This document shows, piece by piece, positions 40,928 through 53,128 of a stretch of 64,000 nucleotides of DNA; within the stretch, counting starts at the first letter, position 1, and each line of letters begins with the position of its first letter. A program made the translations under genes and the position numbers. Source of the stretch: Thermincola carboxydiphila (GTDB lineage Bacteria > Bacillota > Thermincolia > Thermincolales > UBA2595); the NCBI GenBank assembly GCA_016841325.1, contig JAENZJ010000003.1:62001-126000 (forward strand), read 5' to 3'. The notes below the pieces were generated by a model. That model saw only the letters and a program-made list of their open reading frames with translations, was not told the origin of the DNA and did no database searches.

Positions 40928-42118
40928 CTAATTATCTTCCGTTTCCGGTTCCTGCAGTATCTCAACAATGCTCATTCCCCGCACCTGCCATGGGATCGGC
41001 CCTGAAACTTTTACTGTTTCACAGGCAGCCTCCCTCTCCTTCACCTGGGTTCCGTCCCTGAGCCCATAAGATACTTTTACCCTAAACAGTGTTTTGTTTT
41101 CTCCGGCAGGTCCCGAGACCTCTGCCACACTGAACCAGCTAATTCTGCTGAAAATCCGGTCAATCTCCCTTTCCCCGGCCCCGGCTTCATACCTAATGAG
41201 CCGTTTACTCAGGTTATAATCAGCCTGTTCCACCGTGGTGAGCACAACATTAAGTACCTGCTCCGCTCCGGCTCCTGCCAGCATTTCCTCAAACCTGCCT
41301 GCAGCCTTCCAGACCATCACCTGGTGTGCCAGGTTGACCTTATTATTATGGACCCTGCTGTCCCGGAAATGAATACAAAAATGCCCGTTAAATTCATTTC
41401 CTCCTATGGCCCCGGCGCCGTGAGGCATCCCGTTCATAGATGCAGCAATCCTGCGCCCCCTTACCGTAACAACTATAGCCCTTCTTTTCCAGCTCCAACT
41501 GCCTCCGTAAATTTCCTTCATAATCCTGCTGTCAGCCGCAGTCAGAGGCTGTACATCAGCATGCAGGCTCCCTGCCCTGCGCTGCACCATAAAGGACTTG
41601 CCGGTATCCAGGTCAGTGATTTTAGCCCGGTCAAACTTGCAAAAAATTTCGTCCACCTCTGCCCATGACAGGAATTCACCATAGGGACTTTTTTTGTTAA
41701 TCTCCTTTAATGCTCCCTCCAGGCAGGCACCTCCGTCCTTCAGGACATAAGTCCGTCCCGTTTCCGGTTCGTACAGGTTTGCCGGCTTGTCAAACCAAAA
41801 GGTCTGGGTTTGGTTTCTGCGTTTCACCACAAGCCGGTACCTCATCCCGGCAGGCCTGCTGTCCTGCTCACCCTGCACCTGTCCCCTGTCTCCGGCAATC
41901 ATGGCACCCGAGATTTGCCTGTTCAGTTCTGTAAGGGTGTTGTCATCGGCAAGGGCTATTTTTCCCTCATGTGAAGCGAAACTTAACTGGGCAGAAATAA
42001 TTTGGCTTATCCAACTGTGCACACCACGACCAAGAAAGAATATAAATAAACAAAAGACCACAATAATCAGGAGTGTTCTTTTAACGGACCTGCCGGTACG
42101 AAACCCGATAACCCGCAA
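40928..42118 (-). CDS. Membrane-anchored protein with the same conserved domain as the LysM protein
   Basis: The TTG at 42118 has GGGGGAGGTG six bases upstream; a frame to 42202 has none. A membrane helix (about residues 14-34, TLLIIVVFCLFIFFLGRG) anchors an outside protein of about 396 residues. The central domain, GSLHADVQPLTAADSRIMKE, GGSWSWKRRAIVV, NGMPHGAGAI, FNGHFCIHF, SRVHNN, matches the C-terminal domain of 33961-35091, residue for residue at the His, Asp, Trp and Asn positions. A further 130 residues follow. It is divergent from the cotE genes. A wall- or spore-related enzyme is likely; not proven. Confidence 0.8.
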   Translation of the reverse strand: MRVIGFRTGRSVKRTLLIIVVFCLFIFFLGRGVHSWISQIISAQLSFASHEGKIALADDNTLTELNRQISGAMIAGDRGQVQGEQDSRPAGMRYRLVVKRRNQTQTFWFDKPANLYEPETGRTYVLKDGGACLEGALKEINKKSPYGEFLSWAEVDEIFCKFDRAKITDLDTGKSFMVQRRAGSLHADVQPLTAADSRIMKEIYGGSWSWKRRAIVVTVRGRRIAASMNGMPHGAGAIGGNEFNGHFCIHFRDSRVHNNKVNLAHQVMVWKAAGRFEEMLAGAGAEQVLNVVLTTVEQADYNLSKRLIRYEAGAGEREIDRIFSRISWFSVAEVSGPAGENKTLFRVKVSYGLRDGTQVKEREAACETVKVSGPIPWQVRGMSIVEILQEPETEDN

Positions 42119-42396
42119 CCGATACACCTCCCCCAATACCCGCCACAGCAGTGCGGCCGGAATGGGCCCGCAAAAGAGCCGCCGGCCTAACCTCACATAC
42201 AAATACTTATTGAAGAGATGTCCCGATTATGTCAAAAAAAGCGGCAAAGGTGTGTCACCATATACAAGTCAGTATCATAGTATACATTAGTATTAAGTGG
42301 CCTGCGAAGGGAGCTGATGTCATAAGGGGGACCAATGCTTCCCAGAATCATATAAATAAATTCAATTTATAAATTATGTACAGGAGGGGATTGTTA

Positions 42397-42924
42397 ATGG
42401 CCGATGTTGGCGGCAAACTGGAGCAAGAAATGGCTGCTCCTACAGACACTTCTTTCAGGGAGATTATTACCAAGGCTATATGCGGGACAGGACAACAGGA
42501 TTTCCGGTATACTGAGGTGCTGGCCATCCCGGTTGGGCGGGTCCCGTCAAGCATCCTCGGATCTTCCGTAACCAGACTTAAGCTCACGGAACCACTGGTC
42601 ACTGAGATTTCAGGAGATGGCAGCAAAAGTGTTCGTGTCAGCGGGACATTTGATATTAATGTCTGGTATGCCTATAATGATGACCAGGCAACAGATGTAG
42701 CCAAAGAAACTGTTAAATTCACCGAGGTTATTCCTATCAATGTTATCAGTGAAAATATCATTGGCCAGGTTGATGCCAGGGCCGTGCTGGTTAAATCACC
42801 CAAGTGCCACAAGACCATAATCACCGCTGGCAACCAGGTCCAGGTAGAGGTTGAACTCGGTATTTATGCTGAAATCATCGGAGAAACCAAGGTTTATGTC
42901 CAGGTGTACTCCGAAACCGACTAG
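42397..42924 (+). CDS. cotE: CotE-type outer spore coat protein
   Basis: The ATG at 42397 has CAGGAGGGG seven bases upstream. FREIITKAICGTGQQDF, PVGRVPSSILGSSVTRLKLT, GTFDINVWYAYND, FTEVIPIN and YAEIIGETKVYVQVY follow the CotE family through its length. In Bacillus CotE is the morphogenetic protein that assembles the outer coat in the mother cell. 175 residues, normal size. First of two paralogues and of the long plus-strand coat locus. A CATATAAATA box at 42349 with AC 16 bases upstream resembles a sigma-K promoter. Confidence 0.88.
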   Translation: MADVGGKLEQEMAAPTDTSFREIITKAICGTGQQDFRYTEVLAIPVGRVPSSILGSSVTRLKLTEPLVTEISGDGSKSVRVSGTFDINVWYAYNDDQATDVAKETVKFTEVIPINVISENIIGQVDARAVLVKSPKCHKTIITAGNQVQVEVELGIYAEIIGETKVYVQVYSETD

Positions 42925-42954
42925 CACAATATTTCTTGAAGGGAGGATTGGTAA

Positions 42955-43587
42955 ATGACCACCGACCGCCCCGCTGTGCGGGAAATAATTACGAAAGCGG
43001 TTTGCGGCAAAGGTGCCTATAAATACCAGAGGTCCATTGACCTGGAAATACCGGTAAGGCATAAAACAATTCAGGTACTCGGTAACTTTGTCTCAAATTC
43101 GGCAATAGATGAAGCAGTAGTTGTGGATAAACCCTTCCAGGGCAAAACTGTCCGGGTCAGGGGCCGCTATGATGTCCATGTCTGGTATGCATATGACCAG
43201 GAGACCTGTGCCGCAAAAACTACCGTATCGTTTACAGAATTTATACCAATAAACTCTTTCGGTAACGAAATTGTCTCCAACCAGCAGGCTTCCGCTAAAA
43301 TCATTGAAAAACCCCGCTGCCGCAAGGCTTATGTAAAAGACCTCGGTAATAAGACAGTTATCAGGGTGGAAATCGAACAACAACTGGCAGCGGAAGTCCT
43401 CGGGCTGACAAAAGTAAAGGTAGGTGTATTGCCACAGGCAGCAGGTATCAGTCAGACCGTAAAAGGCCGGGAGCTGACTGCTCCCCAGGCTTCGGAAACA
43501 AGCACCATAAGTCCGGTACAAAACTACTATTTTGATTTAAAATATGATGAAGACCTTGTAGAAGATGATGACGATTACGACCACTAA
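42955..43587 (+). CDS. CotE paralogue with acidic tail
   Basis: ATG preceded by GGGAGG. VREIITKAVCGKGAYKYQ, GRYDVHVWYAYDQ, FTEFIPIN and LAAEVLGLTKVKVGVLPQ match the first CotE. 210 residues; the extra C-terminal part ends in YDEDLVEDDDDYDH, strongly acidic as the CotE tail in Bacillus, where this end recruits outer-coat proteins. 30 bp downstream of the first cotE, surely the same operon, which ends with the terminator at 43597. Confidence 0.88.
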   Translation: MTTDRPAVREIITKAVCGKGAYKYQRSIDLEIPVRHKTIQVLGNFVSNSAIDEAVVVDKPFQGKTVRVRGRYDVHVWYAYDQETCAAKTTVSFTEFIPINSFGNEIVSNQQASAKIIEKPRCRKAYVKDLGNKTVIRVEIEQQLAAEVLGLTKVKVGVLPQAAGISQTVKGRELTAPQASETSTISPVQNYYFDLKYDEDLVEDDDDYDH

Positions 43588-43596
43588 AATTACCAG

Positions 43597-43637
43597 AAAA
43601 GCGTCCTGGTTCTTAAGCTGAACGACGCTTTTTTTTT
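43597..43637 (+). terminator. Terminator after the two cotE genes
   Basis: The stem AAAAGCGTC/GACGCTTTT with a loop containing CTTAAG is followed by nine T residues. Confidence 0.85.
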
Positions 43638-43731
43638 GGGGAAATAGCATCACAGTAAGTGTTTACATACTATATATAGTAACTTCAGTTTAAAAAACAC
43701 CATCTTAAACCTGAAAAGAGGCGGAAAAATC

Positions 43732-45162
43732 TTGCCAAAGATATTTACCGTAAACCTTAGCTGTTCGCCTTCCCTGCCTGAAGGCAGCATTACCGTTTCT
43801 GATAATCTCTTCCGTTACATCAGGTGTACTTTTAATGAAGAAATTATTCTCAGAACGGGCCAACAGTCCCTGGTTGTCAGGTTCAGGGGAACCCACCGGG
43901 ATGATTTGCCATCTCTGCAGATTGACCCCCGGACCTGCCGGGAAATCCTGCTTCCTGTCCCGTTAAAACTGGACCTCCTGTTAGACCCTTCCTCCGGCAT
44001 ATGGCGCCTGGGACCGGTAATCGGCATTTTGGCCCACCGCTATGACAAAATATTGAAACCCTTTGGAGAACAAACATCTTTTTTTCGCAAACTGATTAAT
44101 TGTGCCAACAATATTAATGCTGTCTGTTTCGCCTTTTCTCCCGGTGATATTGACTGGGAAAACGAGGTCATCCGCGGGTCTGTACCGGCTGATGATGAAG
44201 GCAGCCGGCAGTGGAATCAGGTAATGTTTCCTTTTCCCGATGTCATCTATGACCGGGGGTTATTTCCCCAGGGTGAAAAGCGCAGTATGGCAGCGGAAGT
44301 CAGGAAATATTTCAGAAAACATCCTCGGGCAAAGCTTTTTAACCCGGCCTTCTTTGGAAAATGGAAAACTCACAAATTTTTTTCGGGCCATGAGGAAATT
44401 TGCCGGCACCTGCCGGAAACCATGCTTTACACAACAGCGGCAGATGCCGCTGAACTCACAGCCAGGCATGGTGTGGTTTACCTGAAACCCAGCGGTGGCA
44501 GTTCCGGAAAGGGTATCATTGTACTCAGCACAAAAGCCCCGGGCTATACCGCTTTTTACCGGAAATTTCGCAAACTTAACAAAGTCAGTTTGGCAGATTT
44601 CTCCCAATTAAACACCACTCTGGATACCCTGATTAACGGCCGCAGGTATGTGGTCCAACAGGGGATCAGGTTAGCCAGTATAAACGGGAATTCCTTTGAT
44701 ATCAGGGTCCTGATGCAAAAAAACCGGCATGGAGTGTGGCTGCGTACCGGGATCGCTGCCAGGGTTGCAGCGGCGGGGAGCTTCATCAGCAACATTCATG
44801 CCGGGGGGCATGCTGAAAAGATTACCAATGTCCTGCAGGCCGTTTTCCCCGACCCGGGACAGGCGAAAAGAATCCTGAATGATATCAGGAGACTGAGTTC
44901 CCTTATTGCAGCCTACATTTCAAAAGAAGGAAATCCCCTGTTTGGTGAAATTGCTGTGGACCTCGCAGTTGATGAATCAGGTAAGGTTTGGGTTATTGAA
45001 TGCAATGCCATCCCGGGCAGAAGTGTTTTCAGGCGAATCGGTGCCCATAACATTGTTGCCCGGGCTGTCAGCCGGCCGATGGAATACGCGTATTATCTTT
45101 CCGGATTTGCCTCTCAGTCAGACAAATACCAAGAGGAGGAACACAGCCAATGGCCTTCATAA
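43732..45162 (+). CDS. YheC/YheD-type ATP-grasp protein 1
   Basis: TTG start with AGAGGCGG upstream; 476 residues. Residues 1-100 form the family's N-terminal beta domain, followed by the GPVIGILAH segment, FSPGDIDWENEVIRG, PFPDVIYDRG and the ATP-grasp core: VVYLKPSGGSSGKGI (nucleotide loop), RRYVVQQGIRL, FDIRVLMQKN and GEIAVDLAVDESGKVWVIEC, NAIPGR with the metal-binding acidic residues. ATP-grasp enzymes join a carboxylate to an amine through an acyl phosphate. YheC/YheD of Bacillus are spore-coat associated. First of four in tandem. Confidence 0.9.
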   Translation: MPKIFTVNLSCSPSLPEGSITVSDNLFRYIRCTFNEEIILRTGQQSLVVRFRGTHRDDLPSLQIDPRTCREILLPVPLKLDLLLDPSSGIWRLGPVIGILAHRYDKILKPFGEQTSFFRKLINCANNINAVCFAFSPGDIDWENEVIRGSVPADDEGSRQWNQVMFPFPDVIYDRGLFPQGEKRSMAAEVRKYFRKHPRAKLFNPAFFGKWKTHKFFSGHEEICRHLPETMLYTTAADAAELTARHGVVYLKPSGGSSGKGIIVLSTKAPGYTAFYRKFRKLNKVSLADFSQLNTTLDTLINGRRYVVQQGIRLASINGNSFDIRVLMQKNRHGVWLRTGIAARVAAAGSFISNIHAGGHAEKITNVLQAVFPDPGQAKRILNDIRRLSSLIAAYISKEGNPLFGEIAVDLAVDESGKVWVIECNAIPGRSVFRRIGAHNIVARAVSRPMEYAYYLSGFASQSDKYQEEEHSQWPS

Positions 45163-46529
45163 ACTTAGATACCACAAATGAAACCTCTCAGACTATATGT
45201 CTGGACCCCGATGACCTGGAGTCACTTGGTTTGCAGCCCAGGGACACCATAACTGTAAGAGCAGGGTCACTGGCAGCAGAAGTGATGGTCAAAGTTATCC
45301 CCGGAGAAAATCAAATTTCCGCCGGGATTCTGAAAACCCTGGAGCTTCCTGTAGTCAACGGTTTACGGCTCATCAGTGAAGGGCCTGCCCAGGTCAGGGT
45401 CGGCCCATTGATTGGGATTCTTACCAGCCAGGGCAAAAGATACCGGACCCCGCCCTATTCATCACAAGGCAAACTGCTACAGCGGTTTCTTACTTATGCC
45501 CTGGAAACAGGCAGCCTGGCTTTTGTTTTTAATCCCCGTGGGGTCGACAGGGATAACGGGAAAATCACCGGACTCTATCTCCATCAGGAACAGGATGGAA
45601 CAGTGACCTGGAAGGTGCATACCTTCCCCCTGCCTGACATAGTTTATGACCGGATCCTGTTCCGCAGTTATGAGAGAAAGAAGCTGACAAAACAAATAAC
45701 ATCATACCTGGTACATCAGGAGGACATAGTTTGTTTTAACCCCAAATTCCTTAATAAATGGGAAACCCACCTGGTCCTGTCGCAAAACCGTTTTTTACGG
45801 GACCACCTGCCGGAAACCTTAAAATTTCAAAGTTCGGAATCGCTGAGGGATTTCGTTAATATATATAAAACAGTGTATCTCAAACCTGTGCACGGCAGCC
45901 TTGGAAAAGGTATTATGAAAATATCGCTCCTGCCGGAAGGTTACAGCTATCAATACCGGAACAGGAAAAACAATATCAAGGGCATCTGGACAGATGTGCA
46001 CAGGATGGACACTGAAATTACTGATTTTGTCAATAAGAAGCCGTATGTGGTGCAACAGGGCCTGGAATTACTCAGCTATAACGGCCGGGTATTTGATATC
46101 AGGGTCCTAATGCAAAAAAACGGTTCAGGTAAATGGGTCAACACAGCCATGGTGGCCCGGGTGGCTTCAGAGGGAAATATTTTCCCAAATGTTGCCGCCG
46201 GAGGTGAAGCCAGGAATGTGGAAACACTCTGGCATGATATAACCTCACAGGACTGGATTGGCAGTGAAACATATTTATCCACACTCTCAGTAAGCCTGAC
46301 AGCGGCAGAAATCCTGGAAAACACCCTGGGTACCTTTGCCGAAATAGGTCTAGACATAGGCATAGATACCAATGGCAAAGTATGGATTATCGAAATCAAC
46401 TCCAAGCCTTCATATAAAGTCTTTCCCAAAGACCAGCCCTACCTGAAGCATAATGCAATAAAACTCCCCATGGATTTTGCAGCATATATGGCAGGGTTCA
46501 CCCCCGGGGAGGAGAGGGGTTCCAAGTGA
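45150..46529 (+). CDS. YheC/YheD-type ATP-grasp protein 2
   Basis: ATG with AGGAGG ten bases upstream, overlapping gene 1 by 13 bp. 459 residues, the best-conserved member: VGPLIGILTSQGK, FNPRGVDRD, PLPDIVYDRI, TVYLKPVHGSLGKGI, KPYVVQQGLELLSYNGRVFD, IRVLMQKNGSGKW and GLDIGIDTNGKVWIIEINSK, PSYKVF. Complete N-terminal domain (LDPDDLESLGLQPRDTITVR). Amide-bond-forming ligase by family; acceptor unknown. Confidence 0.92.
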   Translation: MAFINLDTTNETSQTICLDPDDLESLGLQPRDTITVRAGSLAAEVMVKVIPGENQISAGILKTLELPVVNGLRLISEGPAQVRVGPLIGILTSQGKRYRTPPYSSQGKLLQRFLTYALETGSLAFVFNPRGVDRDNGKITGLYLHQEQDGTVTWKVHTFPLPDIVYDRILFRSYERKKLTKQITSYLVHQEDIVCFNPKFLNKWETHLVLSQNRFLRDHLPETLKFQSSESLRDFVNIYKTVYLKPVHGSLGKGIMKISLLPEGYSYQYRNRKNNIKGIWTDVHRMDTEITDFVNKKPYVVQQGLELLSYNGRVFDIRVLMQKNGSGKWVNTAMVARVASEGNIFPNVAAGGEARNVETLWHDITSQDWIGSETYLSTLSVSLTAAEILENTLGTFAEIGLDIGIDTNGKVWIIEINSKPSYKVFPKDQPYLKHNAIKLPMDFAAYMAGFTPGEERGSK

Positions 46530-47155
46530 ACGCCCCGGCCGGCAAAGCAGTTTTCCGGCTGATAAAAGCCAGGTGGGGAGGGCTTATGGGGGACCAGGGC
46601 AATTATCTTTATCTTTCACCCCAGAGCCTAAAACAACTGGGGATTCAACCCAACAGTGAAATTTCTTTTAAGGCAGGGGCATCCTGGAATAAGGCAGTCA
46701 TTGATACAGTCCGCTGCTCCACAGATTACACTGAACCCATTGTCTTTGTATCCCCTGCCCTGGGCCGCAGCTGCCAGATTCCCCCGGGCACCGCCATTAC
46801 CCTGAAATTTTACCCTGCCACGGGTTTATTATGTGCCGGCCCCCTGATTGGGCTTTTTACAATACGCAACAGTATTCCCGATACAGAATTCGGAAGCTGT
46901 GAACAGGTTTTAGCCGCCCTGTCAGAATCAGCAGAAAAAATATCAGGCCTCATTTTCGTTTTCTGTCCTGAAGACATTGACTGGAGAAACTCTTTGGTAA
47001 CCGGATATATACCGCATTACGAACCTGTAACCGGGAGGCGGACCTGGCAGCCCCTTATCCTGCCCCTGCCGGACACAGTTTATGACCGCATTCCTACCAG
47101 GTCAGCCGAATCCAGGCCCGAGGTTCAGGAAGCAAAATCATGGCTGATGCTGTAA
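46526..47155 (+). CDS. YheC/YheD-type ATP-grasp protein 3, N-terminal part (interrupted)
   Basis: GTG at 46526 shares GTGA with the stop of gene 2. It covers the N-terminal beta domain (LSPQSLKQLGIQPNSEISFK), AGPLIGLFTI, FCPEDIDWRNSLVTGYIP and LPLPDTVYDRIPTRSAES, then ends at TAA 47153-47155 within what should be the linker before the FNPRF motif. The C-terminal half continues in the same frame at 47162, so a single nonsense codon splits the gene. Either a recent mutation, a sequencing error or a true two-chain enzyme. Confidence 0.75.
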   Translation: MNAPAGKAVFRLIKARWGGLMGDQGNYLYLSPQSLKQLGIQPNSEISFKAGASWNKAVIDTVRCSTDYTEPIVFVSPALGRSCQIPPGTAITLKFYPATGLLCAGPLIGLFTIRNSIPDTEFGSCEQVLAALSESAEKISGLIFVFCPEDIDWRNSLVTGYIPHYEPVTGRRTWQPLILPLPDTVYDRIPTRSAESRPEVQEAKSWLML

Positions 47156-47161
47156 TCAGGG

Positions 47162-47992
47162 GTGATGTATTTTAACCCCAGATTTCTTGATAAATGGGAA
47201 ACCCCTGCACTCCTGCAGAATATTCAGGAGGTAGCCGATTATCTGCCACCGACCAGACCCGTTTACAGCCCGGAAGACATCCTTCAGTTCCTGGAACAAT
47301 ACCGTTCAGTATTTTTAAAGCCATCTTCCGGCAGCCTGGGGCGGAGAATAATAAATATCCGGCAGGGCGGTCCGGACCAATACCAGTTTATGTACCGTAC
47401 CAGGGATAAACAGACCATTTCCGGCAAGGCAGCCGGTTTCACAGACCTGATGACTGCCCTTGGTCCCGTTATGGGTAACAAATCCTACATAGTCCAAAAA
47501 GACCTGCAGCTGGCCAAATACCAGGACTGCCCGTTTGATATCCGCGTACTGGCTCAAAAGGACAGGTTCGGAAACTGGCGCAGGACAAAAATTTACGTCC
47601 GCAAAGCAGCCCCGGAAAGTTTTCTCTCAAACCTCAGTGACGGAGGAAACCCTGAATCCATAAAAACTGTCCTTAAAGAGGTTTTTCATACGGACTTCCT
47701 GACAGGAGAAGGGATTGGCGAAGAAATCCGCCAGGCAGTAAAAAGGCTTCCGGCAGCCCTGGAAAAAGCCTCAGGTATGATTTGGGGTGAACTGGGACTT
47801 GACCTGGGCATAGACTGCAATGGGAAAATATGGCTGATAGAAATAAACGCCAAACCTTTCCGCACCCTGGTGTCCCAAAGCGGGTCTTATAAAGTTATTG
47901 AGAGGTCCCTGATGCGCCCGCTGGAGTATGCAAAATTACTGGCCGGGTTTTATGGTCATTCCCTAAACCCATTTCAGGCCAAAGGAGGGTAA
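47162..47992 (+). CDS. YheC/YheD-type ATP-grasp protein 3, C-terminal catalytic part
   Basis: Begins GTG-ATG six bases after the in-frame TAA; TCAGGGGTG before the ATG at 47165 could serve re-initiation. It holds the whole ATP-grasp core: MYFNPRFLDKWETPALL, VFLKPSSGSLGRRI, KSYIVQKDLQLAKY, FDIRVLAQKDRFGNW and GELGLDLGIDCNGKIWLIEI, NAKPFRT. All catalytic motifs are kept, which argues the break is recent or tolerated. Confidence 0.78.
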   Translation: MMYFNPRFLDKWETPALLQNIQEVADYLPPTRPVYSPEDILQFLEQYRSVFLKPSSGSLGRRIINIRQGGPDQYQFMYRTRDKQTISGKAAGFTDLMTALGPVMGNKSYIVQKDLQLAKYQDCPFDIRVLAQKDRFGNWRRTKIYVRKAAPESFLSNLSDGGNPESIKTVLKEVFHTDFLTGEGIGEEIRQAVKRLPAALEKASGMIWGELGLDLGIDCNGKIWLIEINAKPFRTLVSQSGSYKVIERSLMRPLEYAKLLAGFYGHSLNPFQAKGG

Positions 47993-49107
47993 TGCCATTG
48001 GAAATCGGTCCGCTGCTCGGCATCCTTACTATTTCGCGGCCCGGCACAACCCCTTTCGTCGGAGGCCAAAACGATTCCTTTACGGAAATCCTTGCTGTTG
48101 CCGATGAGATGAAATGTATCGCCTTTGTTTTCAATCCACTTGAAATTGACTGGTCCAAAAAGGCCGTATGGGGTTACCGGTATAACTTCAAACTGAATCC
48201 GGGAGAATGGGAGCGGCAAATCTGCCCTCTGCCCAACATAATTTATAACCGGATTCCTAATAGGACACTGGAAAACAGAGATGACATAATCCCTGTACTC
48301 GACAAACTAAGGCGCCAGTACGGCCCCAGGTTTTTCAATCCGTTTTTTCTGGATAAATGGCTGACCCACAAAGTTTTGTTTCAGAACGGTAAAACCAGGG
48401 ATTTTCTTCCGGAGACCCATCAGCTTAAAGACCCGGCAGTACTGTCTGACATGCTGTCCCGGTATCGTTCGGTTTACCTTAAACCCAAAGCCAGCAGTCT
48501 CGGGAATGATATTTTAAAAATCAGCATAACCGACAATAATGAATACTTCTTTATTCATCAGGCCCTTGGCCAGGAGACGCGGGAAGGCATTATCCGTGAC
48601 TGCCGGGACATTTTAAAGGAATTGCCGGAGACCGGAGAAGAACCGGGTTACCTCATACAGCAGGCAATACCCCTGGCCCGTTTCAGAAACAGGCCGTTTG
48701 ACCTGCGGCTTCTGGTGCAGAAGGACCGTAAGGGAACCTGGCGGAAAACAGGTACTGCAGCACGCATCGCCGGGGAGGGGAGCATTACCACCCATGTTTT
48801 CTACGGGGGCACCAGGTTTAATGCCGACACAGTCATCAGGGAGGCCGCCCGAAATCACGGTTTTTCTTATAAAAAAGTAACCAAACAGCTCAGGAGGATT
48901 GCCTTCCTGTTCCCCAGGGTTATTGAAAATGCTTACAGGCAATCCTTCGGTGAACTGGAAATGGATATCGGTATCGACGAAAAGGGTAAGGTCTGGTTTT
49001 TTGAGGCCAATTCAAAACCCTTCCGATTTGATGAGAAACTGCTGCGGGCAAAATCGCTGGTCCGCCTGATCCATTATGTCCGTTATCTTGACCAGTTACA
49101 GAGCTAG
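47992..49107 (+). CDS. YheC/YheD-type ATP-grasp protein 4 (short form)
   Basis: ATG at 47992 shares one base with the stop before it and has AAGGAGG upstream. 371 residues: it lacks the 100-residue N-terminal beta domain of its neighbours and starts directly at EIGPLLGILTISRPG. The rest is complete: FNPLEIDWSKKAVWGYR, PLPNIIYNRIPNR, RFFNPFFLDKWLTHKVL, VYLKPKASSLGNDI, YLIQQAIPLARFRNRPFD, LRLLVQKDRKGTW and GELEMDIGIDEKGKVWFFEA, NSKPFR. In YheC/YheD of Bacillus two proteins differ in the same way, so it may pair with a long form. Confidence 0.9.
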   Translation: MPLEIGPLLGILTISRPGTTPFVGGQNDSFTEILAVADEMKCIAFVFNPLEIDWSKKAVWGYRYNFKLNPGEWERQICPLPNIIYNRIPNRTLENRDDIIPVLDKLRRQYGPRFFNPFFLDKWLTHKVLFQNGKTRDFLPETHQLKDPAVLSDMLSRYRSVYLKPKASSLGNDILKISITDNNEYFFIHQALGQETREGIIRDCRDILKELPETGEEPGYLIQQAIPLARFRNRPFDLRLLVQKDRKGTWRKTGTAARIAGEGSITTHVFYGGTRFNADTVIREAARNHGFSYKKVTKQLRRIAFLFPRVIENAYRQSFGELEMDIGIDEKGKVWFFEANSKPFRFDEKLLRAKSLVRLIHYVRYLDQLQS

Positions 49108-49151
49108 GTCTGAAATTATACACTGCCAGCATTCCCAAAGGAGGTGATCCG

Positions 49152-50690
49152 ATGAGGCTGGCCTTTCTTTACGACAGGCACCTGACACAGCCTGAACTGC
49201 TGGATGCATTCAGTGACTGCATCCTGACAACAGGGCCGGTTAAGGGCTGTAGCGTCCTTCTCCGGTGGGGAAACCCCGAAGGACCGGATAACATCTGCCA
49301 GGTAGTACTCAACAGAAAACAGCCTTTAAGAAACTCACTGGATAAGGAAAAAGTCTTCGAAATACTCAGGCTCAACAGAATCAGGCGTCCCCGCTTTATT
49401 ACACCCGGGCCCGGCTCACCTTATCCCCTGGTGGGTAAATGGAATAACCAGACTTCGGGAGGCGTTAGGGAAGCACTTATCCAGTCCTTTGACAAGGCCC
49501 TGACATCAGGGGCCGATTTCTTTGTGGAGTATGTAAATACAATAAAGAAATACAATATATATTTTTTTAATCTAAACAGCTTCTGGGTGACTAAAAAAGT
49601 TGCCGTAAAAACCAACACTCCGCATAACCGGGTAACACCCTCATGGGTGTATGAACAAATTCCCCCTGACCTGGACCGGGATACGGTAAAAGCCTGCCTG
49701 CTGGCCCAGCGGGCAATCTACATTTTGGGCCTGGATTTTGGCATGGTTCATGCCGCCATTGATATCAGGGGCCGCCCTGTTATTCTGGATATAGACCCGG
49801 CCCCTGTTCTGCCCTCAAAATCCATAAACCTGTTCTCCGAGAAGGTAAAAAAATTTACAGCTGACATCGAAAAACCTGATACAAGGCCTGACAGCCTCTT
49901 GGAAAACACTGTCCTCCTGGGCGCTGACCCTGAGTTTATGTTAAAAGACCCGGAAACAGGTACTGTTGTTTATCCATCAGATTATCTGCAAAAGGACGGC
50001 CCTCTGGGATATGATGAAAGAAGTGAAAACAGGGAAGGCAGGCTCTTTCCCCTTGCTGAAGTCAGGCCCTCTCCGGACTATTGCCCTCTCAGGCTCACCA
50101 AAAAAATCAGGGATATTTTAAGACAGGCTGCATTCATGATTCCTCCGGATATCCAATGGCTTGCCGGCAGCCTGCCCTTTGACAGCTACCAGATAGGAGG
50201 CCATATACACTTCAGCAACATTAAGGTGAACTGCCGCCTGTTAAGGGCTCTCGATAATTACCTGGCCATACCCATGATGCTGATTGAGGACCCCGAAAAG
50301 TCCTCCAGACGCCGCCGTCAGTACGGGTGGCTGGGAAGCATCCGTCCCAAACCCCATGGCGGCTTTGAATACCGGACACCGGGAAGCTGGCTGGTCTCGC
50401 CGGAAATAGCACGAGGCTGCCTGTGCCTGGCAAAGATTGTGGCCACAGAGTTCCGGTCACTTACCAGGGATTATTTTACTGACATAGAGCTGCAAAAGGC
50501 ATTTTACCAAAGTAAAAAGTATTACTTTTATGACATTTTCAATGAAATCTGGGAGGACCTCCGGAAAACAAGACTTTTTAGCAGATACTCAGCATACCTT
50601 AACCCTGTTGTAAACCTCATCAAAACCGGCAGCCACTGGGACGAGACGTCTGATATACGTAAATCCTGGGGGCTGCTGCCGGTGCCTTAA
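49152..50690 (+). CDS. ATP-grasp-like / COOH-NH2 ligase (amidoligase) fusion
   Basis: ATG with AAAGGAGGTGA upstream; 512 residues. Residues 1-250 look like a reduced ATP-grasp domain (PLVGKWNNQTSGGVREAL, LGLDFGMVHAAIDIRGRP, VILDIDPAP). Residues 255-480 match the glutamine-synthetase-like COOH-NH2 ligase type 2: LLGADPEFML, PLAEVRPSP, IGGHIHFS, RRRRQYGWLGSIRPK, GGFEYRTPGSWL; His, Glu and Arg residues for metal and substrate are present. Such amidoligases join an amine to a carboxylate with ATP, and comparative genomics has linked them to peptide tagging. Last enzyme of the array, 44 bp after gene 4. Confidence 0.87.
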   Translation: MRLAFLYDRHLTQPELLDAFSDCILTTGPVKGCSVLLRWGNPEGPDNICQVVLNRKQPLRNSLDKEKVFEILRLNRIRRPRFITPGPGSPYPLVGKWNNQTSGGVREALIQSFDKALTSGADFFVEYVNTIKKYNIYFFNLNSFWVTKKVAVKTNTPHNRVTPSWVYEQIPPDLDRDTVKACLLAQRAIYILGLDFGMVHAAIDIRGRPVILDIDPAPVLPSKSINLFSEKVKKFTADIEKPDTRPDSLLENTVLLGADPEFMLKDPETGTVVYPSDYLQKDGPLGYDERSENREGRLFPLAEVRPSPDYCPLRLTKKIRDILRQAAFMIPPDIQWLAGSLPFDSYQIGGHIHFSNIKVNCRLLRALDNYLAIPMMLIEDPEKSSRRRRQYGWLGSIRPKPHGGFEYRTPGSWLVSPEIARGCLCLAKIVATEFRSLTRDYFTDIELQKAFYQSKKYYFYDIFNEIWEDLRKTRLFSRYSAYLNPVVNLIKTGSHWDETSDIRKSWGLLPVP

Positions 50691-50781
50691 CGTAAATATT
50701 CCTTCATGTAACCTCCTGAGGAAATTTCTCATATAATGTATTGATTCGGAGCCTTACAGAAACAGAAAGGAGGTTAAGTTG

Positions 50782-51150
50782 ATGGGCAGACATCGTTGTA
50801 CCCCGCAGGTTAATTATAATTACAACTTTATGATCCCTTACACCGGATATGCCGGCGACCCTGGTGCAATGTACGGGGCTTATCCCGGGACTCATGTGCC
50901 CGGCGCAGTTGCAGGAGCCTATGGTGAATACCCCGGAATGTATCCCGGAGGCTATCCGGAAATGTACCCCGGAGGCTATCCGGGAATGTACCCCGGCTAC
51001 TATCCAGACTTATATCCCGGAATGTATGCCGGCTACTATCCCGGGTATTATGGAGGCGATTACAACTGCGGTCACAGGCGCCGCAGGAACTTCCCATGGT
51101 GGTTGCTGCTGCTGCCGTTCGTATTCCCCTTCTTTGGCCCCTTCTTTTAG
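50782..51150 (+). CDS. Gly/Tyr/Pro-rich coat-like protein with hydrophobic tail
   Basis: ATG at 50782 lies eight bases after AGGAGG (a TTG at 50779 also possible). About 122 residues. The middle repeats MYPGGYPEMYPGGYPGMYPG and YYPDLYPGMYAGYYPGYYGG, like many spore coat and cross-linked structural proteins. A basic CGHRRRRN follows, then WWLLLLPFVFPFFGPFF, a hydrophobic end. Low-complexity, no enzyme fold. It follows the ligase array with its own terminator. It may be a coat protein and, by position, a substrate of the ligases (inference). Confidence 0.8.
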   Translation: MGRHRCTPQVNYNYNFMIPYTGYAGDPGAMYGAYPGTHVPGAVAGAYGEYPGMYPGGYPEMYPGGYPGMYPGYYPDLYPGMYAGYYPGYYGGDYNCGHRRRRNFPWWLLLLPFVFPFFGPFF

Positions 51151-51286: not shown

Positions 51287-52681
51287 CTAATTTGTCTCAC
51301 TCTGTTTCCTGAGTTCTTTTACCACCCTTTCCATATAGGACCCCCGGGAACCCTTCACCAAAATCACACTGTTTTCGGGAATATTATTTCTGAGAAAATC
51401 TGCTGCCTGTTTTTTTAACAGGAATGACCATATCTTCATTTGGTCAGAGCTTAAGGCTGCTCCCTCGGCAATCTGTTTCGCCAGCCTGCCTACCGTAACC
51501 AGCCAGTCGATATTTAATTCCCCTGCCCGCCGGCCAACTTTGCGGTGGTTTTCCACAGCATATTGTCCCTGTTCCAGCATGTTGCCAAGTACGGCAATTC
51601 CTGTTTTGCCGCGGGACAGGGCTGACAAGACCTCCAGTCCTGCCATCATTGAACCGGGATTGGCATTATAAGTGTCATTTATCAGGATACTGTTCCTGAT
51701 ACCTTTGGTGATCTGCAGCCTCATGGCAGGTTTCCTGTACCCGGCAAGACCTCTTCTGATAGTATCTGCATCGAAATCAAAAATGCAGGCGGCTGCTATT
51801 GCCGCCAGGGCATTGCTTACATTGTGTTCACCAAAAGTCGGAATAAAGAAACTGTGTTCCTTGCCGTCTATTACTGCCGTAAAGGATGTTCCTTTTTTAT
51901 CAAAAGTTATATTACCTGCATTGAAGTCGGCCTTATTTTTCAGACCATAATAAAGCACCTTGCCTTTAAAACCCGAATGGTCTATTTTCTTTGTATTGGG
52001 GTCATCTGCATTCAGCAACAGAAATCCGTCATCAGGTATTCCTTCGATTATCCCCGCTTTCTCACTGATAACGTTCTCAAAACTACCCAGGTGTTCAACA
52101 TGCCCTTCTCCTATATGGGTAATAATTCCTACCCGGGGCTGTATAATCCGGGACTGTTTGCTGATATGTCCGGGCCTGTTCATCCCAATTTCAAAAACAG
52201 CAGCCTCATAACCATAGTTTAGCCGCATGATGTGTGGTGGTACGTAATGGGGCAGGTTCATATTGCCTACCGTTTTCAGGGTCTTCCACCTGTTCCGGAA
52301 GATTGATGCAATCATTTCCTTGGTTGTGGTCTTTCCCGATGTACCGGTCACCCCGACCACAGGGATATCGTGCAGGTCCCGATAATACTTAACGGCTTTC
52401 CAAAAAGCCTCCCCTACCTTGGGTACGGATATAACCGGAATATCAGGATCAAAGGGCAAAGCCTTTTTGTATTTGGAAACCACAATGCCTGCCGCCCCTT
52501 TGTCAATGGCTTCAAGTATATTATCATTTCCCGGCCTTCCACCCACAACATCAAAATACACTAAGCCCGGTTTTACAGAAGCGCACCTGGACATAATCCC
52601 TTTCACAGGCTTGTTGCCATCTCCCCTGACAAGGCTGCCTTCCACTATTTCACATAACCTGGCAGCGGGTATAGTTCGCAA
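51287..52681 (-). CDS. murF: Mur ligase, MurF type
   Basis: TTG at 52681 with GAAGGGGTGA upstream. About 464 residues with the three Mur ligase domains: an N-terminal domain (VKGIMSRCASVKPGLVYFDV), the ATP loop GVTGTSGKTTTKEM, NLPHYVPPHI, GEGHVEHLGSFENV and the MurF-typical ILINDTYNANPGSMMAGLEV. MurF adds D-Ala-D-Ala to UDP-MurNAc-tripeptide. It stands alone, outside a division/wall cluster, beside a spore-coat locus full of other amide-forming ligases, so it may be a second copy for the spore cortex. Whether another murF exists cannot be seen. Confidence 0.88.
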   Translation of the reverse strand: MRTIPAARLCEIVEGSLVRGDGNKPVKGIMSRCASVKPGLVYFDVVGGRPGNDNILEAIDKGAAGIVVSKYKKALPFDPDIPVISVPKVGEAFWKAVKYYRDLHDIPVVGVTGTSGKTTTKEMIASIFRNRWKTLKTVGNMNLPHYVPPHIMRLNYGYEAAVFEIGMNRPGHISKQSRIIQPRVGIITHIGEGHVEHLGSFENVISEKAGIIEGIPDDGFLLLNADDPNTKKIDHSGFKGKVLYYGLKNKADFNAGNITFDKKGTSFTAVIDGKEHSFFIPTFGEHNVSNALAAIAAACIFDFDADTIRRGLAGYRKPAMRLQITKGIRNSILINDTYNANPGSMMAGLEVLSALSRGKTGIAVLGNMLEQGQYAVENHRKVGRRAGELNIDWLVTVGRLAKQIAEGAALSSDQMKIWSFLLKKQAADFLRNNIPENSVILVKGSRGSYMERVVKELRKQSETN

Positions 52682-52747
52682 AATTATCACCCCTTCTGAT
52701 GCCAAAACCGGATACGCGGGATAAGTAGAAAAACACTGTTACTTTTA

Positions 52748-53128
52748 TTATACCAGGGCACCTTCCGCTTCTCCGGAATCAGCGCCCAGTTCCTCCGGGC
52801 TTTCGGTATTATCGTAGAAGTCATGGCTGAAAGCCAGGAGGTTCCCGGATAGTATAAGGAGGATCAGAATCAGGAACAGGACGAATACCAGATTAAGTGA
52901 TAAGGTAACAGTACCTGCGGCGGTATTCAGAGTAATTGTCTTTTCCTCACCTCTGATGGATGTAAGCGCATGGCTCATGGTTTTTACCGCTTCCTGACCG
53001 GGATTGCTGGTGACTACCTCCAGCAGGCTTAAGAGACCATCGGTGACAGCCTGGCCTTTTGCCCCGAGATAAGGTCTAAATCCCTGCAGCAGCGGGACAA
53101 TATTGGGGTCAATGGGAACATAACTCAT
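52748..53128 (-). CDS. Membrane-anchored protein of unknown function
   Basis: 126 residues, ATG with AGGAGG upstream. Residues 1-60 are helical (LLQGFRPYLGAKGQAVTDGL, LLEVVTSNPGQEAVKTMSHA), residues 75-98 a strong membrane helix (LNLVFVLFLILILLILSG), and the tail is acidic (ESPEELGADSGEAEG). No family recognised. It lies between the hydrogenase operon terminator and murF. Confidence 0.72.
   Translation of the reverse strand: MSYVPIDPNIVPLLQGFRPYLGAKGQAVTDGLLSLLEVVTSNPGQEAVKTMSHALTSIRGEEKTITLNTAAGTVTLSLNLVFVLFLILILLILSGNLLAFSHDFYDNTESPEELGADSGEAEGALV

Follow-up and report, generated by a model that had tools for sequence, protein, structure and literature searches.

The gene cluster analyzed here lies in a 64,000-nucleotide stretch of the Thermincola carboxydiphila genome (contig JAENZJ010000003.1), hereafter called the window. 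It comprises two genes for homologues of the coat morphogenetic protein CotE, four tandem genes for YheC/D-type ATP-grasp ligases (G1 to G4), a gene fusing an ATP-grasp-like region to a COOH-NH2 ligase domain, and a gene encoding a Tyr/Gly/Pro-rich low-complexity protein (Table 1). All nine plus-strand reading frames (42397 to 51150) listed in a preliminary description of the sequence are present in the order given there. They represent eight genes, as an in-frame TAA divides G3 into two frames. The ATG at 42397, which had been proposed as the start of CotE1, is also the most likely one, as AGGAGGGG is located just upstream.

Table 1. Features of the array and of related loci. Coordinates without a locus label are positions in the window; pLDDT, predicted local distance difference test score.
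Feature	Position	Strand	Remarks
Conserved gene divergent from CotE1	40928-42202	-	no Pfam match; apparent N-terminal transmembrane stretch
Candidate sigmaK-like promoter of CotE genes	42257..42284	+	ACC-16-CATAGTAT
CotE1, coat morphogenetic protein homologue	42397..42924	+	PF10628, E=9e-34; Shine-Dalgarno AGGAGGGG; mechanically called frame from 42376
CotE2, CotE homologue, acidic C-terminal tail	42955..43587	+	PF10628, E=8e-28
Intrinsic terminator after CotE2	43595..43634	+	RNA fold -15.6 kcal/mol, z -2.65, T run
Candidate sigmaE/K -10 of ligase genes	43666..43673	+	CATACTAT
G1, YheC/D-type ATP-grasp ligase	43732..45162	+	PF14398, E=2e-76; active site intact; own orthologous clade
G2, YheC/D-type ATP-grasp ligase	45150..46529	+	PF14398, E=7e-79; AlphaFold pLDDT 75
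G3, YheC/D-type ATP-grasp ligase	46526..47992	+	frames 46526-47155 and 47162-47992; PF14398, E=2e-76 on second part
G4, YheC/D-type ATP-grasp ligase	47992..49107	+	PF14398, E=1e-69; without the extra N-terminal region of G1-G3
Fusion, N-terminal part, degenerate ATP-grasp-like region	49152..49916	+	no Pfam match; metal site lost
Fusion, COOH-NH2 ligase type 2 domain (phage phiEco32-like, glutamine-synthetase/GCS fold)	49917..50690	+	PF14395, E=6e-99
Candidate sigmaK-like promoter of low-complexity gene	50711..50737	+	ACC-16-CATATAAT
Tyr/Gly/Pro-rich low-complexity protein	50782..51150	+	YPG repeats, Phe/Pro-rich C-terminus; mechanically called frame from TTG 50779
MurF-like ligase gene (by eye, no family search) and 126-aa gene	51287-53128	-	convergent, after the array
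YheC/D gene of array broken by DDE transposase insertion (G023)	L026:2964-5848
COOH-NH2 ligase adjoining CotE and remote YheC/D array, f23 genomes	L028:9020-11059, L029:6211-12922		G030
GNAT-fold genes in arrays	L027:6349-6843, L029:7323-7841, L043:15890-16360, L047:13947-14444, L049:8077-8613, L054:4673-5110, L056:14099-14578
AstE/AspA-type genes	L026:15942-16886, L040:2265-4850, L042:16900-17697		plus loci of five more genomes
Split PF14395 ligase genes	L054:8989-15733 (G289), L056:3608-10212 (G309)

The ligase genes and their active sites

The family assignments clearly exceed the respective cut-offs. CotE1 and CotE2 score 117 and 97.5 bits with the CotE model (PF10628, cut-off 25), the ATP-grasp genes 235-265 bits with ATPgrasp_YheCD (PF14398, curated cut-off 26.8), and the COOH-NH2 ligase domain 331 bits with COOH-NH2_lig (PF14395, cut-off 25). 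G1 to G4 form four orthologous clades in a maximum-likelihood tree, one per position in the array, with eight members each and good support. The LKP lysine, the S-x-G loop, the FD-R-L-QK motif and the E..D..D..E-x-N metal site are kept in all four clades. When arrays of further genomes were included (FastTree, deep nodes partly weak), deep groups appeared that are G1-like, G2/G3-like and G4-like and are shared with other families, mostly with one gene per group in each genome. Three further YheC/D copies of the window's genome, which are situated outside arrays on C35 and C36, lie apart in the tree. Because of these clades and deep groups, the set of distinct ligases is considered to be old and non-redundant. 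The ratio of nonsynonymous to synonymous substitutions (dN/dS) of 0.07-0.23 indicates purifying selection on the array genes, and judged from their sequences the four ATP-grasp ligases look active and non-redundant. The insertion of a DDE transposase gene into a YheC/D gene in the array of G023 shows that single array members can be lost.

In fold comparisons, the AlphaFold model of G2, in which residues 1-84 (the N-terminal region) are of low confidence, matched a graspetide ligase, RimK, ArgX (with LysW), GshB and tubulin tyrosine ligase (TTL), among others; RimK, ArgX and TTL are among the best matches (E about 1e-10), as are graspetide ligases. These proteins, namely RimK, ArgX with LysW, the graspetide ligases and TTL, act on peptides or proteins, and the predicted likeness is counted in favor of a modification of coat proteins.

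In the fusion protein, only one of the two halves is intact. The motifs GxDPEF, AE-RP, GGH-HF and FEYR of the COOH-NH2 ligase domain are invariant in all 11 aligned sequences. The preceding ATP-grasp-like half, however, is degenerate. No Pfam family matched its 255 residues in any of the eight orthologues, and the resemblance is confined to the ATP-grasp C-lobe (LGLDFG.V..ID..GRPVILDI.PVP). The glycine loop is gone and E-x-N is replaced by D-x-(T/S/D) in most family members, so that this half does not qualify as an ATP-grasp domain; the site has drifted over 29 ligases. The profile link to YheC/D is weak, and a sequence search of the PDB yielded a borderline match to D-Ala-D-Ala ligase and no more. 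The AlphaFold model of the fusion, calculated with two input sequences, reached a pLDDT of 30.5, and its degenerate half is therefore interpreted by sequence comparison, according to which it is probably a non-catalytic ATP-grasp remnant.

In place of the TAA in G3 (47153-47155), G001, a member of the same genus, has CAG and G002 has CAT; none of the seven other array genomes shows a break in G3. The dN/dS values of the two G3 parts (0.23 and 0.15, compared to 0.07-0.17 for the other array genes) reveal little loss of constraint, for which reason the stop is interpreted as a recent nonsense mutation, a tolerated split of the protein or an assembly error. A recoded stop codon (selenocysteine or pyrrolysine) was ruled out, given the codon TAA and the CAG and CAT of the relatives. 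Close to the stop, several adjacent codons differ from those of the relatives, and a GTG start is located just downstream.

Conservation of the array and linkage to CotE

The block of the divergent gene, CotE1, CotE2, G1 to G4 and the ligase has an identical gene order in eight genomes, which belong to two families: that of the window, six others of the same family and one of another family in the order (loci L019-L025). The recurrence of this arrangement in seven further genomes is far beyond chance. For the low-complexity protein (122 residues), a counterpart is encoded at the corresponding position in five of the six remaining genomes of the family. Its N-terminus (KPKVNYNxNYNFMMP) and its Phe/Pro-rich C-terminus (FFPFFFPFF) are kept, while the repeats in the middle vary between genera from YPG to MMPG; in G005 and G009, the gene is not located beside the array. 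The protein looks like a coat protein.

The phylum sample consisted of 398 genomes, 50 of which encode PF14395; with G007 added, 51 Bacillota-type ligase genomes were available. A YheC/D domain was detected within 1 kb of the ligase in at least 39 and within 12 kb in at least 44 of these 51 genomes; of the 28 ligase genomes that encode CotE, 25 have it no farther than 12 kb from the ligase. When the eight genomes of the first two families are excluded, the counts are at least 31 of 43 (within 1 kb) and at least 36 of 43 (within 12 kb) for YheC/D, and 17 of 20 (within 12 kb) for CotE. The ligase is encoded in 27 of the 44 CotE genomes and in 23 of the 354 others (Fisher p about 4e-17), and spoIVA is present in 50 of 50 ligase genomes compared to 340 of 398 overall (p 2e-4), kinship being ignored in both comparisons. 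Together with the split ligase gene described below, these findings make the link of the array to the coat and the mother cell a strong one.

Variants of the arrangement occur in other families. In the f23 genomes, the ligase adjoins CotE and has no ATP-grasp-like region; in G030, the YheC/D array comprises five genes, encloses a GNAT gene and is situated 1.7 Mb away from the ligase. As the YheC/D array lies elsewhere, the ligase is tied to CotE independently of YheC/D. A GNAT-fold gene, mostly the last gene, is part of the YheC/D array in seven genomes of other families. An AstE/AspA-type (carboxypeptidase-like) gene, which in some genomes encodes a multi-domain protein of at least 800 residues, adjoins the COOH-NH2 ligase in eight genomes; none was found in the window's own genome. 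GNAT-fold and carboxypeptidase-like enzymes are recurring partners of peptide-ligase systems.

With regard to the neighboring genes, the one divergent from CotE1 is conserved in all eight array genomes. The MurF-like gene and its 126-aa neighbor follow the array in all genomes of the family that possess it, but not in G009.

Transcription signals and a split ligase gene in relatives

Upstream of CotE1, GTGTCACCA and CATANNAT were identified, and the block GTGTCACCA-16 nt-CATA..AT is kept with its spacing in all eight aligned genomes. A -10 element of the CATACAAT type, CATA(C/A)(A/T)AT, precedes G1 in seven of the eight genomes, and in the three genomes of the genus the low-complexity gene is preceded by a conserved ACC-about 16-CATATAAT. 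The terminator behind CotE2 recurs in relatives as AAGCGTC...GACGCTTTTTTTT; because of this stem-loop with its T run, the CotE genes and the ligase genes probably do not form one operon. Counts of sigma-factor motifs were rejected as a statistic, since lone matches are not significant, neither for the CotE promoter nor for the -10 element of G1, and positional conservation alone was counted. For the same reason, the likeness of the conserved motifs to mother-cell sigmaE and sigmaK promoters is suggestive only. The sigmaE regulon of Bacillus subtilis includes yheC and yheD, whose expression is raised by SpoIIID (PMC517825). An expression of the array in the mother cell would be in accordance with both.

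In two species from a different genus (G289 and G309), an element of 5.2-5.4 kb that encodes a large serine recombinase of 504 residues interrupts the PF14395 ligase gene, in both cases at the same codon, adjacent to the GGH motif. Direct repeats flank the element (14 bp in G309, 10 bp in G289), and joining the flanks through the repeat results in one open frame of about 465 residues that runs through GFPIGGH. The two species are only distantly related, their synonymous sites being at or close to saturation, and their recombinases have diverged to the same extent as the host genes. Nevertheless, both halves of the ligase gene are open and constrained (dN 0.29 and 0.18). Decay would be the expected fate of a dead gene.

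In all these respects, the element resembles skin in sigK, SPbeta in spsM and gin; these, too, are large serine recombinase elements that interrupt sporulation genes at short direct repeats, and joining restores the frame (PMC5025042, PMC4191935, PMC5595907). Those elements are removed during sporulation from genes needed in this process. The element of G289 and G309, which lies outside the window and in a ligase gene, carries the large serine recombinase, direct repeats and restorable frame typical of the skin type and looks like a new sporulation intervening element. No report of an intervening element in an amidoligase gene was found in the literature searched, which is not proof of absence. 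The split gene gives an independent hint that the enzyme may be needed only in the terminal mother cell.

A putative coat modification and its relation to known systems

With modest confidence, we interpret the array as a set of coat-linked, amide-bond-forming ligases that would act in the mother cell and add amino acids successively to coat proteins. CotE1 and CotE2 would be transcribed from their own promoter and form part of the coat scaffold. Each ATP-grasp enzyme and the COOH-NH2 ligase would activate a carboxylate as acyl phosphate with ATP and join an amine to it. At the surface of the forespore, coat proteins would in this way receive one amino acid after the other on carboxylates that are either C-terminal or part of Asp/Glu side chains. 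Each enzyme would perform its own step, and the degenerate half of the fusion probably serves docking. The location at the coat and the successive action of the ligases are inferred; a stepwise addition of different residues is plausible in view of four ancient, non-redundant paralogues.

The nearest candidate acceptors are the low-complexity YPG protein, to which the residues may be added, and the acidic tail of CotE2. RimK, ArgX and TTL act on acidic protein tails. As an acceptor specific for the array, the acidic CotE tail was ruled out, because CotE of ligase-free genomes is equally acidic (compared across genomes at plus-strand loci). Acidic tails being a general trait of CotE, that of CotE2 is regarded as a candidate only.

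The interpretation given in the preliminary description is borne out in part: the genes are not scattered in relatives, and the active sites of the four ATP-grasp enzymes and the COOH-NH2 domain are intact. The site of the fused ATP-grasp half is degenerate, and the CotE genes probably have to be separated from the ligase operon. Expression in the mother cell gains indirect support from the conserved -10 elements, the restriction of the ligase to spoIVA genomes, the skin-type element and the sigmaE regulon of B. subtilis, but not from lone motif matches. Several observations weigh against the proposed modification. Many arrays, namely those of families f16 and f50, are without any CotE, G3 is broken in the assembly of the window, and the sigma-factor motifs lack significance as lone matches. 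Furthermore, no substrate or activity of any YheC/D protein or cellular PF14395 ligase was found in the literature searched. Finally, B. subtilis YheD, an early coat protein of unknown function, self-associates strongly and encases the spore (PMC7911427), which fits a structural role, too.

The array might instead produce a free non-ribosomal peptide or polyamide, as a small molecule or a polymer, that is laid into the coat without any modification of proteins. According to PMC4431377, linked ligases of the ATP-grasp and COOH-NH2 types often produce peptides through successive ligations, and several distinct ligases with GNAT and carboxypeptidase partners resemble a pathway. However, no gene for amino acid supply or export is kept with the array, and the tight CotE linkage and the conserved low-complexity protein point to protein partners, which renders a free product rather unlikely. 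Even less probable is a mainly structural function, in which the YheC/D proteins would polymerize around the spore as YheD seems to do and catalysis would be residual or minor. None of the four clades shows any change in the catalytic lysine, the loop or the metal-site residues, whereas the fused ATP-grasp copy demonstrates how an unused site decays; the association of YheC/D with a second, unrelated ligase fold also argues against it. A graspetide-like system (ribosomally synthesized and post-translationally modified peptide), with the low-complexity protein as the substrate to be crosslinked by the ATP-grasp enzymes, is very improbable: the position of its gene after the ligases, its ends kept in six family genomes and the graspetide ligases among the G2 fold matches are outweighed by the lack of a match to any NCBIfam graspetide ligase model, by repeats that contain few Asp/Glu, Lys, Ser or Thr and change from YPG to MMPG, and by the absence of the gene beside the array in G005 and G009. 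The composition of the low-complexity protein also differs from that of known cores.

If the successive modification of coat proteins is correct, the coat would carry an amide-linked modification that is unreadable from the genome and may bear on spore resistance, adhesion and germination. In a wider and more tentative form, three to four non-redundant ATP-grasp ligases and one of the glutamine-synthetase fold, in places with a GNAT-fold and a carboxypeptidase-like enzyme, could, in the mother cell of many Bacillota, assemble a defined amino acid chain on coat proteins, with one lineage controlling the process by programmed DNA excision in the ligase gene. Across many Bacillota, YheC/D-type ligases are tied to CotE and a second kind of ligase as separate conserved paralogues, which opens their role in the coat to a test on a single gene cluster.

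No paper on ATP-grasp enzymes of the spore coat was found in the literature search, and a survey from 2012 saw no CotE in clostridia (PMC3533761). The YheC/YheD proteins of Bacillus belong to the same family by profile (PF14398) and are linked to sporulation as well, whereas Thermincola possesses four distinct tandem paralogues beside CotE and a COOH-NH2 ligase. RimK, ArgX/LysX and TTL are also ATP-grasp enzymes acting on protein tails and are among the best fold matches of G2. In contrast to the array, they are single enzymes with known substrates; the YheC/D genes score far below their curated family cut-offs, and YheC/D has an extra N-terminal region. The phage phiEco32-type ligases share PF14395 and are 24-33% identical to the Thermincola domain, but match only from about residue 250 on and, bar one weak match, are devoid of the ATP-grasp-like half. 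Closest in kind are the operons in which ATP-grasp ligases are linked to COOH-NH2 or GNAT amidoligases, as noted by Iyer and Aravind (cited in PMC4431377); there, too, several amidoligase folds are adjacent. Because successive ligations by linked ATP-grasp and COOH-NH2 ligases have already been proposed for them, the kind of system is known. Compared to the operons as described in PMC4431377, the Thermincola array is tied to CotE and to endospore formers, and the CotE-linked layout of four ligases, the degenerate fused ATP-grasp half and the split ligase gene of relatives set it apart.

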